From: Rhodoferax sp. WC2427 | GTDB lineage: Bacteria; Pseudomonadota; Gammaproteobacteria; Burkholderiales; Burkholderiaceae_C | Length of the DNA: 64,000 nucleotides | Direction: 5' to 3' | NCBI RefSeq assembly: GCF_040822085.1 | Contig: NZ_CP162006.1 | Coordinates: forward strand, 1,674,001-1,738,000 | In this document: positions 15,663 through 58,651 of the stretch, piece by piece | Position numbering within the stretch: position 1 is the first letter of the stretch | Layout of the letters: each line of letters opens with the position of its first letter | Notes under the pieces: model-generated | The model's input: the letters and a program-made list of their open reading frames with translations, nothing else | The model's database searches: none | What the model was told of the DNA's origin: nothing | Translations under genes and position numbers: made by a program

Positions 15663-15672
15663 ATAGCATTAA
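15623..15672 (+). repeat. interspersed repeat copy forming the 3' end of the dehydrogenase gene
   Basis: CTCACGCCCATCAATGCGGC followed by GCAAGTAGCTAGAAAATAGATAGCATTAA. It contains both parts of the family element (the ACGCCCAT half and the TAGCTA...ATAGC palindrome) and encodes the final eight residues plus stop of the hydroxyacid dehydrogenase, then runs up to the rmuC start codon. Confidence 0.65.
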
Positions 15673-16985
15673 TGAGTTTGATTGAATGGGGGCTGCTGGC
15701 GCTGGCCGTACTGAACTTTGCGCTCTTGCTGGCCCTGCTGCTGCGCAAGCCGCCCGAGGCGGATAACGCTGCCCTGGACCGGCTGGAGCGGGGGTTGCGT
15801 GAATCGTCGCGGGCCGACCGCCAAGAGCTGGGCACCAGCTTCGCCAACTTCCAGCGCACCCTGGTGCAGCAAAGTGCCGAGGCCACGCGCACCCAAAACA
15901 CCCAGATCGACGCGCTGGCCCAGCAGCTTGCCTTGCTGCAACGCTCGGTCAGCGACACCCTGAGCACCCAACTCCTGGCCCTGGGCGAGTCCAACGCAAG
16001 GCGCATGGGCGAGGTGCGCGCCACGCTGGAGGCCCAGCTGCAGCAGCTGCAGCAAAGCAACGCCGCCAAGCTGGATGAAATGCGCCAGACCGTGGATGAA
16101 AAGCTGCAGACCACGCTGGAAACCCGCCTGGGCGAAAGCTTCAAGCAGGTGGCCGACCGGCTGGAGCAGGTGCACAAAGGCCTGGGCGAAATGCAGTCGC
16201 TGGCGCAGGGCGTGGGCGACCTGCAGCGCGTGCTGACCAACGTCAAAACCCGCGGCATGTTTGGCGAAGTGCAGCTAGAGAATTTGCTGGAACAGGTGCT
16301 GACGCCTGAGCAGTACGGCAAGCAGATCGAGACCAAGCCGCGCAGCAACCAGCGCGTGGACTTCGCGGTGCGTTTCCCCGGCCGCAGTGCCGACGGCGCG
16401 CCCGTCTGGCTGCCCATCGACGCCAAGTTCCCCCGCGACGACTACGAGCGCCTGCTCGATGCCCACGAGCGGGCCGACGTCGTCGCCGCCGAGGCATCCG
16501 CCAAAGCCCTGGAAGCCCGCATCCGCGCCGAGGCCAAGTCCATCGCCGAGAGCTACCTGGCCCCGCCCCACACCACCGATTTCGCCATCCTGTTTTTGCC
16601 CATCGAGAGCCTTTACGCCGAGGTGCTGCGCCGCCCCGGCCTGATGGACAGCCTGCAGCGCGACTACCGCGTCACCCTGGCAGGCCCCACCACCTTGCTG
16701 GCCATGCTCAACAGCCTGCACATGGGTTTCCGCACCCTGGCGCTGGAGCAGCAGGCCAGTGAAGTGTGGAAGGTGCTGGGCGCGGTGAAAACCGAGTTCG
16801 AACGCTACGGCGAATGGGTCGCCCGCATCCGCGAGCAAGTGCAGAAGGCCTCGGATACGCTGGATAAGGCCGATACCCGCACCCGGCAGATGCGGCGGGC
16901 GCTGAAGGTGGTGGAGGCGTTGCCGGATGCGGAGGCGCAGGCGCTGTTGCCTGTGGGGGGAGATTTGGAGGAGGGGAATGTGTAA
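15672..16985 (+). CDS. rmuC: DNA recombination protein RmuC homologue
   Basis: 437 residues: an N-terminal membrane anchor (about 3-24), a long Gln/Leu-rich coiled coil (about 40-190), then the RmuC nuclease-like core (KTRGMFGEVQLENLLEQVL; RVDFAVRFPG; PIDAKFPRDDYERL). RmuC homologues limit inversions between short inverted repeats, possibly as PD-(D/E)XK-like nucleases at replication forks. The C-terminal residues are Glu-Gly-Asn-Val, and the TAA stop (16983-16985) lies inside the outer core site of an integron-type attC, so a cassette array abuts this gene exactly. Confidence 0.93.
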   Translation: MSLIEWGLLALAVLNFALLLALLLRKPPEADNAALDRLERGLRESSRADRQELGTSFANFQRTLVQQSAEATRTQNTQIDALAQQLALLQRSVSDTLSTQLLALGESNARRMGEVRATLEAQLQQLQQSNAAKLDEMRQTVDEKLQTTLETRLGESFKQVADRLEQVHKGLGEMQSLAQGVGDLQRVLTNVKTRGMFGEVQLENLLEQVLTPEQYGKQIETKPRSNQRVDFAVRFPGRSADGAPVWLPIDAKFPRDDYERLLDAHERADVVAAEASAKALEARIRAEAKSIAESYLAPPHTTDFAILFLPIESLYAEVLRRPGLMDSLQRDYRVTLAGPTTLLAMLNSLHMGFRTLALEQQASEVWKVLGAVKTEFERYGEWVARIREQVQKASDTLDKADTRTRQMRRALKVVEALPDAEAQALLPVGGDLEEGNV

Positions 16986-17035
16986 CGGTTGAGATGAGCA
17001 GCCGGTCGCGGTCCGCTCGATGAAAGGGTTAGGGC
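16981..17035 (-). repeat. integron attC-like recombination site 1
   Basis: On the minus strand: R'' core CCCTAAC, L''-like CTTTCATCGAG, a GC-rich centre, L'-like CTCATCTCAACC, then R' core GTTACA. The layout and the characteristic CCTTTCATCGAG/CTCATCTCAA wording match attC sites of gene cassettes. The L''/L' arms pair with one unpaired extra base, as needed for the folded single-strand substrate. The stop codon of the upstream channel gene lies in the R'' box, and the rmuC stop codon lies in the R' box. Confidence 0.8.
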
Positions 17036-17973
17036 GCACTCCGCGGACTGCCCAGCAAACTGACAAGGTAACCTACCAACAAGACACTGAAGATCAACTG
17101 AGTTAAAACGAACACTCGAACCATTCGACTGTTGGGAACGATGTCGCCGAAGGTTGTCGTAGTGGAGACTCCAACACTAAAGTACAAGAAGTCGATCCAC
17201 TGAAGTCTGGCTGTACGCTTTGAATACCAATCCTCAAGGCGATTGAAAGCCTTTCCGCGAAGGTCTGCCAATCTTCCCATGAGGGAGATCTGTTCCTTGC
17301 GTAGAGTGGCTAGCTTTGTCTCAGTTGCATCGAACTTTGCTGTTGTGTTCGGATCGGCCAATTCCCGTAGATGGTGAAGCACATAGTCGCCGGTGTCAGC
17401 TTGACGGACAGCCAATACATATTGAGCCTTTGCCACGTCAACTTTTGCGTTGGCAGCCGCGATTGCCGCGGCTGGTGAAGGTGATTTTTGTGCGGCGCTT
17501 GCTAGCGCATCGGCCACGGTTGTCGCACGTTCAACTGCTGCGGACTCAACAGCAACTGCCTTTTGCTTGTATTGTTCGACGTTTGACCAAAGCTTGGCGG
17601 AGTGCTCTTCATACACTGCCTTCGCCGCTAGCTCAATCGTTTTTTGTTCTCGTTCCAGTGCGCGTAACTGGTTCTGGGCCGCAGATGCCTCACGATCAAT
17701 CTCGTCGACACTCTTGGAGAACTCGTCTAGTTCAATGGCTGATGTTGCAGACGAAGCTGCGGTGGAGTCCCACATAGCGCCAGGGCTTGGTGACCATAAT
17801 TTGGCCAGGAGTTGGTCGTAGGGCGTTAGATTAAATTCCCTGTTCAAGATAAAGCTGTCAGGTCGAGTTACCCACGCCCCCCAGTACATAAGGGAAAACA
17901 TCAGGACCGACAGCATCCAAACGACGGCAGTAGCGGCTTTACGGTTGCATAGAAGGTGACGGACTGGTGGCAT
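17029..17973 (-). CDS. two-TM pore-loop ion channel-like protein with central coiled coil (cassette gene)
   Basis: 314 residues. TM1 is at about 14-34, followed by a long Ala/Glu/Lys-rich, coiled-coil-forming region (about 80-250, presumably periplasmic or cytosolic depending on topology). A pore-helix/filter segment FLYFSVGVSTTTTFGDIVP (262-280) and TM2 (284-308) end the protein almost immediately. The segment matches the ion-channel (Ion_trans_2) pattern, but the K+ filter T-V-G-Y-G-D reads T-T-T-F-G-D, losing the first Gly and the Tyr. Two-TM pore modules occur as membrane effectors. The size of the coiled-coil insertion between TM1 and the pore is unusual. Ion selectivity and role are unknown; the start is directly after the cassette core site. 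Confidence 0.72.
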   Translation of the reverse strand: MPPVRHLLCNRKAATAVVWMLSVLMFSLMYWGAWVTRPDSFILNREFNLTPYDQLLAKLWSPSPGAMWDSTAASSATSAIELDEFSKSVDEIDREASAAQNQLRALEREQKTIELAAKAVYEEHSAKLWSNVEQYKQKAVAVESAAVERATTVADALASAAQKSPSPAAAIAAANAKVDVAKAQYVLAVRQADTGDYVLHHLRELADPNTTAKFDATETKLATLRKEQISLMGRLADLRGKAFNRLEDWYSKRTARLQWIDFLYFSVGVSTTTTFGDIVPNSRMVRVFVLTQLIFSVLLVGYLVSLLGSPRSAP

Positions 17974-17978
17974 TGGGT

Positions 17979-18047
17979 ATGTAACGTTTGAGATGAGCGG
18001 CGTGACCTGGCTTGCCGGGGCACGTCGTCTCGATTGAAGGGTTGGAT
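17979..18047 (-). repeat. integron attC-like recombination site 2
   Basis: On the minus strand: R'' core ATCCAAC (a perfect RYYYAAC), CCTTCAATCGAG as L'', a GC-rich imperfect stem, CTCATCTCAAACG as L', then R' GTTACAT. The ends share the same bases with attC 1 while the centres differ in sequence and length (69 against 55 bp), which is the hallmark of attC families. Confidence 0.82.
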
Positions 18048-18048
18048 T

Positions 18049-18876
18049 TCACGCGCTGGCTTTCGGCAGGATGGAGACGCGCACTTCAATGCCGTGGTCT
18101 CCAGTATTGAGGTCGGATTCGATGCCTGCCGGATTGGCGACTCTGCCCTCCGGGTCATAGACGAAGCACACCAGGCGACGGCATTGCGGATGCTTCTTGT
18201 ACTTTGCGATATCGATGATGAGTTGCTCGCCAACACTCTTCGCGTTAAGCCCTGACCGCGTTTTCTTGATTTCGATGACGGTGTCAATTTCGGGGAGTAG
18301 AAAGTCTGTGCGTGATGCACTTCCAGCGTAGCTTGGTACCCACTCTTCAGGTCTTACATCATTGAAGTGAAGCCGCAGAAGAGCATGCATCAAGTCTTGA
18401 ACGTCATATTCGTCATTTACGTCAAGAGTAGGCCGCTCGGCATGACGACTACGTAGCTGTACAGCTACGGCATGAAAGCGAAGAACCAATTCATCGAGCG
18501 CATCGAGAAGCCTGCGTTGATCAGTGCCTGATTCAATCGAGCCCGTTGCTACCGTGAAGAGCGTTGGGTTTCGCTCAATTCGTGTGATCACTGCGCAAAC
18601 GACACCTCGAATCTCTTCCACACTTGCGTATGAGGACGAGTTGTAGAAATTGCTAATTCCGTCGTTGTACGAGTTTGTAACCAAGCGAATGTGCTGTGCC
18701 GACCCAGGAACGTGATCACGTAGTAAGTCGACGAGTTCAGTTGTGATGGTTCGAAGTCGATAGTTGTCTTGGCTGTCGATTGATATGCGCTCTCGAGTTC
18801 GCGTAAAGCGACCAAGAATGGTCGCAAGTTCAACTTTGTATTTCTGTAACGCTTCGAGGACTTCGGCAGCTTGCAT
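18049..18876 (-). CDS. DpnII/MboI-like PD-(D/E)XK nuclease domain protein (cassette gene)
   Basis: 275 residues. The N-terminal half (1-150) is helical and unrecognised. The C-terminal domain has a PD-(D/E)XK signature: Thr-Asp191-Phe-Leu-Leu-Pro, then VIEIKKTR with Glu202 and Lys204, followed by GEQLIIDIAKYKKHPQC and a FVYDPEGRVANPAGIESDL segment. The same arrangement is typical of the DpnII-MboI-type endonuclease domain found in many defence-island proteins that lack a methylase partner. It probably cleaves nucleic acid when triggered. No methyltransferase is nearby. It has no Shine-Dalgarno; translation may be coupled to a leader ORF upstream. Defence function is inferred. Confidence 0.72.
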   Translation of the reverse strand: MQAAEVLEALQKYKVELATILGRFTRTRERISIDSQDNYRLRTITTELVDLLRDHVPGSAQHIRLVTNSYNDGISNFYNSSSYASVEEIRGVVCAVITRIERNPTLFTVATGSIESGTDQRRLLDALDELVLRFHAVAVQLRSRHAERPTLDVNDEYDVQDLMHALLRLHFNDVRPEEWVPSYAGSASRTDFLLPEIDTVIEIKKTRSGLNAKSVGEQLIIDIAKYKKHPQCRRLVCFVYDPEGRVANPAGIESDLNTGDHGIEVRVSILPKASA

Positions 18877-18881
18877 ATGAA

Positions 18882-18940
18882 ATCTAACGAGATGTGTGCC
18901 GTAAAACCTGAGGTTTAAATCGGCGACTGAGGTTTAAATC
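18882..18940 (-). other. attI-like junction: GTTAGAT core preceded by two direct repeats
   Basis: Minus-strand core GTTAGAT (18882-18888) fits GTTRRRY exactly and marks the 5' end of the first cassette. Upstream are two identical 14-bp repeats GATTTAAACCTCAG (18927-18940 and 18908-18921) spaced 19 bases apart. attI sites of mobile integrons likewise consist of a core site plus two direct repeats bound by integrase. It could also be a degenerate attC, since the bases next to the core (CATCTC) recall an L' box. Confidence 0.45.
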
Positions 18941-18946
18941 ATCCAT
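18884..18946 (-). CDS. 20-codon leader ORF ending in the cassette core site
   Basis: A short minus-strand ORF begins at ATG 18946 behind a strong AGGAG with 6-base spacing and reads MDDLNLSRRF ... HTSR, ending at a TAG that lies inside the GTTAGAT core. The nuclease ATG follows 7 bases after this stop and has no ribosome site of its own, so reinitiation is plausible. This parallels the short ORF in attI1 of class 1 integrons, which boosts translation of the first cassette. Too short to confirm as expressed. Confidence 0.45.
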   Translation of the reverse strand: MDDLNLSRRFKPQVLRHTSR

Positions 18947-19446
18947 CGAAATCTCCTGGGATTGGTTTGCAAACTGGGTTTTCATGAGTTGAGTCAGTTT
19001 TTATACAGGTATAAAAATTTCGATAAACCCAGCATCTTCGATGTGTCGTCCACTATAGCCCGCCGAAGTCTTGCGGCACCCTTTGATCGGGTATTTGTCC
19101 TTCAAAAGAAGGGGCGTGAAATGTTCTTTTTTTCGTAGCTTTTTGTGCTGGCGGAATAAGCGTCGGAGCCGGTTTTCTCTTAAAAATTTTGATGTAGGTT
19201 TGTGGTGAATACAGCTCGGGGTGGGGGTACTCGCGCCCTAGGCGCGATGCCTGGCGTAGCCGGGCCGATCCCGCGCCCCGGGGTCCCCCTCTGCAATGCG
19301 CCGAGGAGCACAGCTTTGGGCGGATCAGGGCTGGCGTCTGTTTGAGCGCCAGCGAGTTTAGCCAGACCCCGCACAAAGCGCGCACCGCAGGTTCCCCGAC
19401 GCGATAGCGGCGGGGCGCTGGCAGTGGGGGCGCCTTTCTTTTGGTG

Positions 19447-19472
19447 ACTTTTCTTTTGCGCAAAAGAAAAGT
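19447..19472. repeat. 26-bp perfect palindrome, terminator-like
   Basis: ACTTTTCTTTTGC/GCAAAAGAAAAGT is perfectly self-complementary with no spacer, and the pairing continues after one mismatch (GT-G...T-AC). Such CTTTTCTTTTG/CAAAAGAAAAG hairpins occur often in Burkholderiales genomes and could terminate transcription in both directions. Confidence 0.6.
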
Positions 19473-19542
19473 TACTGCGCCGCCGGGCGCATCACCCGGC
19501 CGGGGATGCTGGCAGGCACCCAGAAAACGTCGGCATCAACCC

Positions 19543-19630
19543 GCCAATAGGGGTCGGAGCCCAAATGCGGGCCACGCCGTGCTCCAGCCGCAAGCAACCC
19601 CCGCGCAATTGGGATCCGACCCCTATTGGC
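19543..19630. repeat. REPIN-like long inverted repeat
   Basis: Two 22-bp arms (19543-19564, GCCAATAGGGGTCGGAGCCC..., and 19609-19630, its complement with one mismatch) are separated by 44 bases. Each arm is itself a small GGGTCGGAGCCC-type palindrome. The arrangement matches REP doublets (REPINs) mobilised by RAYT transposases. No RAYT gene is in the window. Confidence 0.55.
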
Positions 19631-58380: not shown

Positions 58381-58401
58381 TTCCAATGCGATAATCCGCA
58401 G

Positions 58402-58651
58402 AGATACCGGGAGAGACTGCTCCCCTTGCATTCGTGCAGGAAATCAGCGCCGAAGGAGCAACCGCCCCCGGAAACTTTCAGGCAAAAGGACCGGTATCTA
58501 CACCACACACATCTGAAGAGCGGTCGGGTTTCGTCACCCGGCTCACCGCAGGAGCAAGCGGCTGGCAGTTCCATAGAACGACCAGCCGCGAATCTCTCAG
58601 GTCCAAAACAGAGGGGGCGATGGCTGCGCACGCGTGCGGCTATCCCCCTGT
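58402..58651 (+). promoter_or_regulatory. tandem glycine riboswitch upstream of the D-amino acid dehydrogenase gene
   Basis: Aptamer 1 (58402-58499): P1 arms AGATACCGG/CCGGTATCT enclose GGGAGAGAC, GCCGAAGGAGCAACCGCCCC and AACTTTCAGGCAAAAGGACC, the diagnostic glycine-aptamer core. Aptamer 2 (about 58512-58613): GAAGAGCGG, CCGCAGGAGCAAGCGG and AATCTCTCAGGTCCAAAACAGAGG. A following hairpin (58608-58651, ACAGAGGGGG against CCCCCTGT) shares bases with P1 of aptamer 2, so it can act as the glycine-controlled expression platform; it ends near a TTTT. Confidence 0.92.

Follow-up and report, generated by a model that had tools for sequence, protein, structure and literature searches.

We analysed a window of 64,000 nt from Rhodoferax sp. 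WC2427 (NZ_CP162006.1, positions 1,674,001-1,738,000, forward strand; genome G000 of our set), in which two minus-strand genes beside the host gene rmuC, one for a DpnII-MboI-type nuclease and one for a potassium-channel-like protein, are as good as certainly integron gene cassettes, judging from their sequence. The array carries two attC recombination sites and is headed by an attI-type element homologous to the attI found beside the integrase gene (intI) in relatives, and no intI over the cut-off was found in this genome. Further orphan copies of the element, i.e., copies without integrase, lie in the same genome, where five attC sites are found behind such elements, and orthologous orphan copies in related species are followed by different cassettes. 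Taken as a whole, the account of a two-cassette array at an orphan attI, which includes translation through a leader open reading frame (ORF) and an integrase (IntI) acting in trans, seems to us highly probable. The original prediction for this DNA was an integron-style cassette pair, possibly with a joint function in phage defence, at 16981-18946: the cassettes stood, carried by the attC scores and the attI head, the functional pair was not supported, and the support for a phage-defence island is indirect; moreover its span missed the orphan attI (18884-19073), most of which lies outside it.

Two attC sites delimit two mobile cassettes

The attC sites were scored with a covariance model (R1; 60 positions and 23 pairs) built from 17 sites of other loci and genomes, excluding those of the window, and tuned to the attC types of this bacterial family; its training sites in part share their L boxes with the window sites, so the test is independent by locus and not by attC type. 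The two sites called attC-like at the outset proved real, with the earlier coordinates correct to within one base, and stood far above background, the level that would have counted against the prediction: they scored 49.3 and 41.0 bits, while the remaining two matches up to E 5 in the 64 kb scored 9.7 and 9.1 bits. As had been noticed, outer words are common to the two sites (CCTTTCATCGAG or CCTTCAATCGAG plus CTCATCTCAANCGTTAC, at the site 3' of each minus-strand gene) and the centres are unrelated: the direct repeat common to both sites is 22 nt long and 91% identical, and CTCATCTCAANCGTTAC has two exact copies in the window vs 0.16 matches on average (≤3 mismatches allowed) over 100 shuffled sequences, two of which reached two matches. 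With the attC fold and its two extrahelical bases imposed on a 20-site alignment that includes both window sites, 82.1% of cells are paired and 60 show changes on both sides, vs 22.1 after shuffling; slid partners pair in at most 41%, a comparison in which the attC structure is favoured because it was drawn from the same sequences.

Each unit has the make-up of a cassette, namely a gene followed by an attC with R''/R' and L''/L' pairing and extrahelical bases. The start codon lies 9 nt past GTT in nuclease and channel genes alike (9-12 bases had been given), and the stops are placed as first described, that of the nuclease (18049-18051) immediately ahead of R'' and that of the channel (17029-17031) inside it. 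GTTAGATTTCA, with which the nuclease cassette starts, is complementary to the R'' of that cassette at 10 of 11 bases; across 16 cassettes such self-complementary ends have a mean run of 9.1 vs 5.2 when shuffled. The last core of the array (16980-16986) gives rmuC its stop codon on the opposite strand.

The site itself is occupied in this genome and empty in its relatives. The genus set comprises eight genomes, the window's own included, and the family set 399 genomes of 141 genera. rmuC is present in all eight genus genomes; in the seven others its interval to the MFS gene is without cassettes, the DNA past rmuC running into MFS-gene DNA with gaps of ~20-430 bp and no cassette match. This is presence and absence at an otherwise syntenic site, as cassettes would give. 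In the family set the nuclease (E 1e-40) and the channel (E 1e-20) were each found in one genome, the window's own. Synteny of the two genes in relatives, which had been named as a way to overturn the prediction, was found neither in that interval of the seven genus relatives nor among the 399 family genomes; both cassettes are mobile by this comparison of sequences.

An attI-type element with a leader ORF precedes the first cassette

The element just upstream of the nuclease cassette is very likely an orphan attI on the evidence of its alignments. Seventeen copies were retrieved, the window copy included, and for 11 of the other 16 the match to the window ends at 18884-18886, inside the GTTAG core. 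Soon past the core nearly all copies have an open frame, a different one in each, and R1 found an attC in 12 of the 16 (one of the 12 is cut by a contig end), a count that is not independent since 10 of those 12 copies supplied training sites to R1.

A profile of the element (R2; 192 positions) was built from 10 copies of genus relatives, excluding the own genome. Within the genus, 18870-19200 matches in six of the eight genomes, own included; in the family, R2 matches at least 99 of the 399 genomes and at least 52 of the 141 genera (at most six candidates per genome scored, with stricter filters; counts are among the matches listed). Integrase genes were searched with TIGR02249 at E 1e-60 in 80 genomes: 60 with the element, 19 listed without it and G097 of another family. 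At least 16 of the 43 family intI hits (15 genomes) have the element in divergent orientation within 400 bp, at gaps of 13-181 bp, and R2 matches in 14 of 30 intI loci examined, in two of them weakly (14.5 and 12.5 bits). The element is in this way homologous to the intI-side site where cassettes join: in two relatives that keep intI (G009 and G010) it is followed by four and six attC sites (E <0.01). R2 found nothing in the integron of G097 (L027), which by that result has another attI.

The anatomy of the element (Table 1) agrees with this identity. i) Two direct repeats, identical to each other, lie upstream of the core, as in an attI; likeness between the repeats within a site is 10.3 of 14 positions vs 7.1 between sites or shuffled (n = 50 distinct sites, related ones included; eight rows out of register, namely L122, L144, L147, L148, L153, L156, L164 and L184, were kept in). 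ii) The leader ORF is exactly 20 codons long and ends at the TAG or TAA of the core; it is open with a Shine-Dalgarno-like word in 11 of 12 intI-linked rows, and in the genus rows it is open in 13 of 14 and has such a word in 10 of 14. A few rows have TGG or TAT in the core, hence no leader stop. iii) Measured back from the 3' end of the element, TATAG starts at 171-175 nt in 12 of 13 genus copies and lies at 169-175 nt in nine of 25 other family rows (three genera); it was not found in the same stretch of 12 intI-linked copies. iv) In intI-linked copies the element overlaps the first intI codons, and genus orphan copies retain roughly a dozen intI-start-like bases with the ATG absent. The intI-linked copies also contain a palindromic region that looks like a promoter, and the palindrome of the window is perhaps an old divergent promoter or operator region between intI and cassettes.

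Table 1. Features of the cassette array, its attI head and its host border (window coordinates)
Feature	Position	Strand	Basis and remarks
rmuC, host gene at the 3' border of the array	15672-16985	+	PF02646, E 2e-76
attC of cassette 2	16980-17034	-	R1 41.0 bits, E 4.7e-9; last core bases are the rmuC stop codon on the opposite strand
Cassette 2 gene, 314-aa two-transmembrane (TM) K+-channel-like protein	17029-17973	-	Filter region TTTTFGDI; ~180-residue helical hairpin between TM1 and pore helix
attC of cassette 1	17979-18047	-	R1 49.3 bits, E 2.1e-11
Cassette 1 gene, 275-aa PD-(D/E)XK nuclease, DpnII-MboI type	18049-18876	-	PF18742; D191, E202, K204
Recombination core GTTAGAT, attI/cassette 1 junction	18882-18888	-	Alignments of other copies end here
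Orphan attI element (very likely), no integrase	18884-19073	-	~190 bp; R2 positions 3-190 of 192, 130.1 bits, E 5.2e-39
20-codon leader ORF MDDLNLSRRFKPQVLRHTSR	18884-18946	-	Stop TAG within cassette core GTTAG; counterpart in attI1 is ORF-11
attI direct repeat DR2, identical to DR1	18908-18921	-	Repeat analysis
attI direct repeat DR1 (GATTTAAACCTCAG)	18927-18940	-	Repeat analysis
Shine-Dalgarno AGGAG of leader ORF	18953-18957	-	Direct reading
Palindrome TTTTTATAC-AG-GTATAAAAA	18998-19017	.	Direct reading; largely conserved in copies
TATAGT, -10-like box	19052-19057	-	Near-constant place in orphan copies; possible promoter role

Orphan attI elements are found at several loci and in other genomes

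The own genome gave no intI over the cut-off (best partial match 78.9 vs 265 bits) and none at E 1e-60; having at least two attC sites and no nearby intI, the array falls among the clusters of attC sites lacking integron-integrases (CALIN) and not among complete integrons, for which intI must be present. R2 matches six times in this genome (five matches are listed, one of them partial), and all five attC found there, when 150 of 3663 candidates were scored with R1, lie behind an element of the same strand, at 461-1850 bp. In the whole genus this holds, within 3 kb, for 21 of 30 attC. At E 1e-60 intI was found in none of the six genus genomes searched and was missing from 34 of the 60 genomes that have the element; among the 135 elements listed for these 60, 119 are not beside an intI hit, a figure inflated by sub-threshold intI fragments and contig ends. 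One genome without intI at E 1e-60 has a longer integrase-less array (L026, G048:C2:49001-68500) with an attI element, five clear attC and one weak partial site. A search of plasmids gave no match to the upstream element.

All 13 genus orphans fall into a single clade (100/99) of a 50-element tree, so orphaning preceded dispersal there, and orthologous loci pair with each other (L127 with L129, 98/98; L126 with L128, 100/99). The label "famOrphan" in this tree is mixed and was not used as an orphan count: L163 is intI-linked (same place as L178), L149 adjoins a damaged intI, L145, L151 and L165 retain intI fragments, and L159 may do so.

The cassettes behind orthologous orphan sites differ. 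In three species without detected intI (L127, L129 and L136 of G002, G000 and G007), the upstream 2.7-2.8 kb is 89.6-90.2% identical almost to the core, identity in the 3' flank is 84-92% over 132-184 bp, and between the cassette proteins (191, 146 and 174 aa) no likeness was detectable; different cassettes between shared flanks at orthologous orphan attI mean that cassettes were exchanged there. At a second locus L123, L124, L132 and L134 have a common 3' flank (83-93% over 522-921 bp) and cassette proteins with no convincing likeness; of these, L132, which is in the own genome, has a degenerate attI (R2 match to positions 4-149 only). Exchange by integrase in trans is the simplest reading of these alignments, and likely.

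Another orphan attI of the own genome (L197, G000:C1:4064500-4068500) is followed by a 130-aa protein, which we take to be of the glyoxalase/VOC fold, and then by an attC. Among ten cassette proteins from other copies in the genus, Pfam assigned with confidence a GNAT acetyltransferase, a DUF4844 protein and a PEBP-like protein, and PADLOC gave nothing convincing (best E 0.0045), so the orphan sites are no defence island as such. The cassette protein behind the orphan attI of G005 (L123:1573-2274) had two weak PADLOC matches (E 0.0045 and 0.0055), one of them to a CARF+HEPN Csx1/Csm6 model.

The nuclease and the channel

The first cassette encodes a DpnII/MboI-type nuclease: residues 127-272 match PF18742 with E 9.4e-54 and 181.5 bits (gathering score 27), and D191, E202 and K204, the D and ExK of such enzymes and putatively catalytic, are invariant in 34 aligned sequences. 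This bears out the DpnII/MboI-like PD-(D/E)XK product without methylase that had been read from the letters, since among the adjacent genes (channel cassette, rmuC and MFS gene; only neighbours were checked) there is no cognate methylase; nor, in a search limited to neighbours, is there an Argonaute gene. With PADLOC the C-terminal half matches Aga_Helical-REase models (best E 7e-30), and the sole PDB sequence match of the nuclease profile is EcbAgaN (23wq; E 1.3e-6 over 67 positions). The order-wide search at E 1e-40 found the nuclease in two of 399 genomes, the own and G525 (49% identity), and 300 relatives were confirmed in genome_contigs. Three of these, from metagenome-assembled genomes (MAGs), have cassette-type ends: L030 (Comamonadaceae, 93%), L032 (Deltaproteobacteria, 59%) and L034 (Betaproteobacteria, 50%). 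The cassette reading of these three rests on the ends, flanks having been read in 11 of 80 nuclease loci, and R1 scored nothing convincing as an attC across these 80 genome_contigs loci (at best 20.4 bits, E 0.05). A phage home for the nuclease was rejected (no match in phages), as was a plasmid home, where 209 plasmid records match, eight cover at least 80% of the query and none exceeds 80% identity. Many of the listed plasmid relatives, from E. coli and others, carry the annotation "malate dehydrogenase", which is apparently mistaken. The most likely role of the nuclease is to cut foreign DNA in defence against phages or plasmids; phage defence by the nuclease alone is plausible from its sequence.

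The second cassette encodes the two-TM pore protein with a long coiled coil that had been foreseen. It matches the 2TM pore-loop family PF07885 (Ion_trans_2) with E 5e-9 and 36.3 bits (gathering score 22.5), and T270, T271, T273, F274, G275 and D276 are invariant in 27 sequences. In K+ channels a TVGYG-type filter is the rule; here the filter is TTTTFGD. The predicted structure (mean pLDDT 83, pTM 0.54) has TM1, a helical hairpin at 76-253, pore helix, filter and TM2, and the modelled pore superposes on that of NaK (2ahz) with rmsd 2.2 Å over 58 columns (probability 1.00, Foldseek E 0.30); Foldseek returned no match to the model at E ≤0.001. Because the N-terminus is basic, the hairpin of the model would lie outside the inner membrane. 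The channel gave 31 hits, own included, from 8000 scored candidates, mostly on contigs <10 kb. Two short peptide patterns in each of viral_contigs and genome_contigs confirmed no relative, PADLOC gave nothing convincing (best E 0.014), and a plasmid home was rejected for lack of any match in plasmids. Most likely the channel forms a K+-channel-like pore whose coiled coil is on the outside, and represents cargo in its own right.

A model of the array and its alternatives

In the proposed mechanism, transcription would start upstream of attI, and ribosomes would load on the Shine-Dalgarno sequence of the leader ORF, stop at the UAG that the core GTTAG supplies and begin again at the ATG of the nuclease gene, 7 nt past the leader stop. 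Such a leader with its own Shine-Dalgarno would explain why the cassette gene has none, the gene being translatable through leader re-start, while expression of the channel cassette would rely on read-through. Cassettes would be inserted and exchanged by an IntI in trans, either a former resident or a visitor; the nuclease would cut foreign DNA and the channel would be separate cargo.

Several observations weigh against this account: i) single-stranded DNA (ssDNA) folding of the minus strand at both attC sites was no better than that of shuffles (z -0.61 and -0.60), the plus strand being better at 17972-18052 (z -2.63) and worse at 16975-17040 (z +1.14), and ssDNA folding by itself is no proof of attC sites; ii) the ends of the channel cassette are an exception to self-complementarity (4 of 5 bases, with a match over 4 bases only); iii) a sigma-70 scan gave no promoter in 16900-19300; iv) 27 of the 43 intI hits have no element within 400 bp among the matches listed, so the element belongs to only part of the family's integrons, the remaining hits presumably having another attI; v) nine of the 30 genus attC have no element within 3 kb among the matches listed, for which no more than six candidates were scored in each genome; vi) at L127, L129 and L136 the shared 3' flank is short and is cut off by a contig end in G002, the flanks of G002 and G000 extend into a gene whose product starts MAKDKTIYTC, which we take to be RadA-like, the likeness of G007 stops within that stretch, and the attI of G007 has lost part of its leader; vii) homologous recombination between the flanks could also have exchanged the cassettes.

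What the dispersed elements amount to can be read in two ways. They may form, in this bacterial family, a distributed integron, in which attI and leader were split from the integrase, multiplied to several fixed loci and are served in trans; we give this barely less than an even chance, and hold just as tentatively that such an integron would consist of many single expression slots with cassette turnover and promoter-like heads instead of one long, mostly silent array. Or they may be ordinary decayed chromosomal integrons of the CALIN kind, intI having been lost in place and the dispersed elements being several dead remains, which we take seriously, as somewhat less likely than not. Decay is what one would see in the intI 5' fragments that persist as open frames of 55-115 codons in some family copies (L145, L149, L151 and L165), in the remnant of the intI start without ATG in the orphan copies and in the degenerate L132 of the own genome. 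However, loss in place agrees poorly with a single clade of genus orphans, in which orphaning came before dispersal, with cassettes that differ at orthologous attI between shared flanks, and with a leader still open in nearly all genus rows.

Two narrower alternatives concern the array itself. Cassettes can be inserted directly into a genomic attG, an established route according to PMC12901181 and PMC12444791, and the array's 3' end, placed at the stop codon of rmuC, would suit it; the upstream repeat would then be an unrelated intergenic repeat. Yet the alignments of 11 of 16 copies of that repeat stop in the cassette core, and relatives have it next to intI as their attI; this adjacency led us to reject both attG insertion without attI as a full account and a plain intergenic repeat, and we consider this alternative very improbable indeed. 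That nuclease and channel are one two-gene defence system travelling as neighbouring cassettes is slightly less remote and still improbable. The cassettes are adjacent and in the same orientation, the nuclease has AgaN-like relatives, and integron cassettes are known to carry anti-phage genes. But these are two separate cassettes, each with its own attC; the nuclease relatives in cassette-like settings (L030, L032 and L034) have a different sequence beside them, genome_contigs holds 300 relatives of the nuclease vs no confirmed relative of the channel (two peptide patterns), and the two genes were seen side by side in one window only. For the array we keep to the orphan attI with two independent cassettes.

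Other observations

A dispersed repeat block lies upstream of the orphan attI (19230-19571) and near several other orphan copies, and it recurs in both orientations at the rmuC-MFS site of G007, where no attI is present; a role of the block in spreading the orphan attI is possible. A pattern match in G003 (L028) was discarded as an attC, being weak under R1 (18.2 and 15.7 bits). An Rfam scan of the window gave a single match, a glycine riboswitch at 58398-58503 (+; 60 bits).

Comparison with known systems

A literature search over titles and abstract openings, with subscription journals mostly outside its scope, found no report of dispersed orphan attI, the accessible parts of PMC9892861 and PMC2426708 included. 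The attI profile, matched in at least 99 of 399 family genomes, shows that an integrase-less array can be headed by a genuine attI whose leader is ORF-11-like, and that such heads are dispersed and recognisable between species as orthologues, with different cassettes behind them. The attI profile makes it testable whether orphan attI are live slots served in trans, and is a handle for first-position and likely expressed cassettes, including possible new defence genes like the nuclease; the channel is rare as a protein, and its coiled-coil insert is unusual.

In the IntegronFinder report (PMC9024848), a CALIN is defined as at least two attC without intI nearby. The present array is of that kind; it differs in being headed by a recognisable attI with leader ORF, in having several such heads per genome and in orthologous heads whose cassettes differ between species. 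In Xanthomonas, too, CALINs are described as arrays without integrase at several conserved places in the chromosome; the accessible text (PMC12444791) mentions no attI at those loci. Chromosomal integrons of relatives (G009 and G010) have the same attI type and attC found by R1, but they keep intI with four and six attC, whereas here there is no intI and two attC.

The element resembles attI1 by layout. attI1 has DR1, DR2, L and R boxes (PMC12901181), and its ORF-11 spans the crossover point, takes its TAG stop from the inserted core and helps cassettes without Shine-Dalgarno (PMC8876359). Here too two direct repeats lie upstream of the core, and a short Shine-Dalgarno-led ORF runs across the crossover to a TAG stop that the GTTRRRY core supplies; it has 20 codons instead of 11, and no integrase is adjacent in the window. 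As for the cargo, the nuclease shares its catalytic domain match with AgaN (EcbAgaN) and DpnII-MboI but has no pAgo or methylase beside it, and its N-terminal ~113 residues fall outside the matches. The channel model has the pore fold of NaK and K+ channel pores but differs in the long hairpin between TM1 and pore helix and in TTTTFGD at the filter, at a Foldseek E value that is only 0.30.

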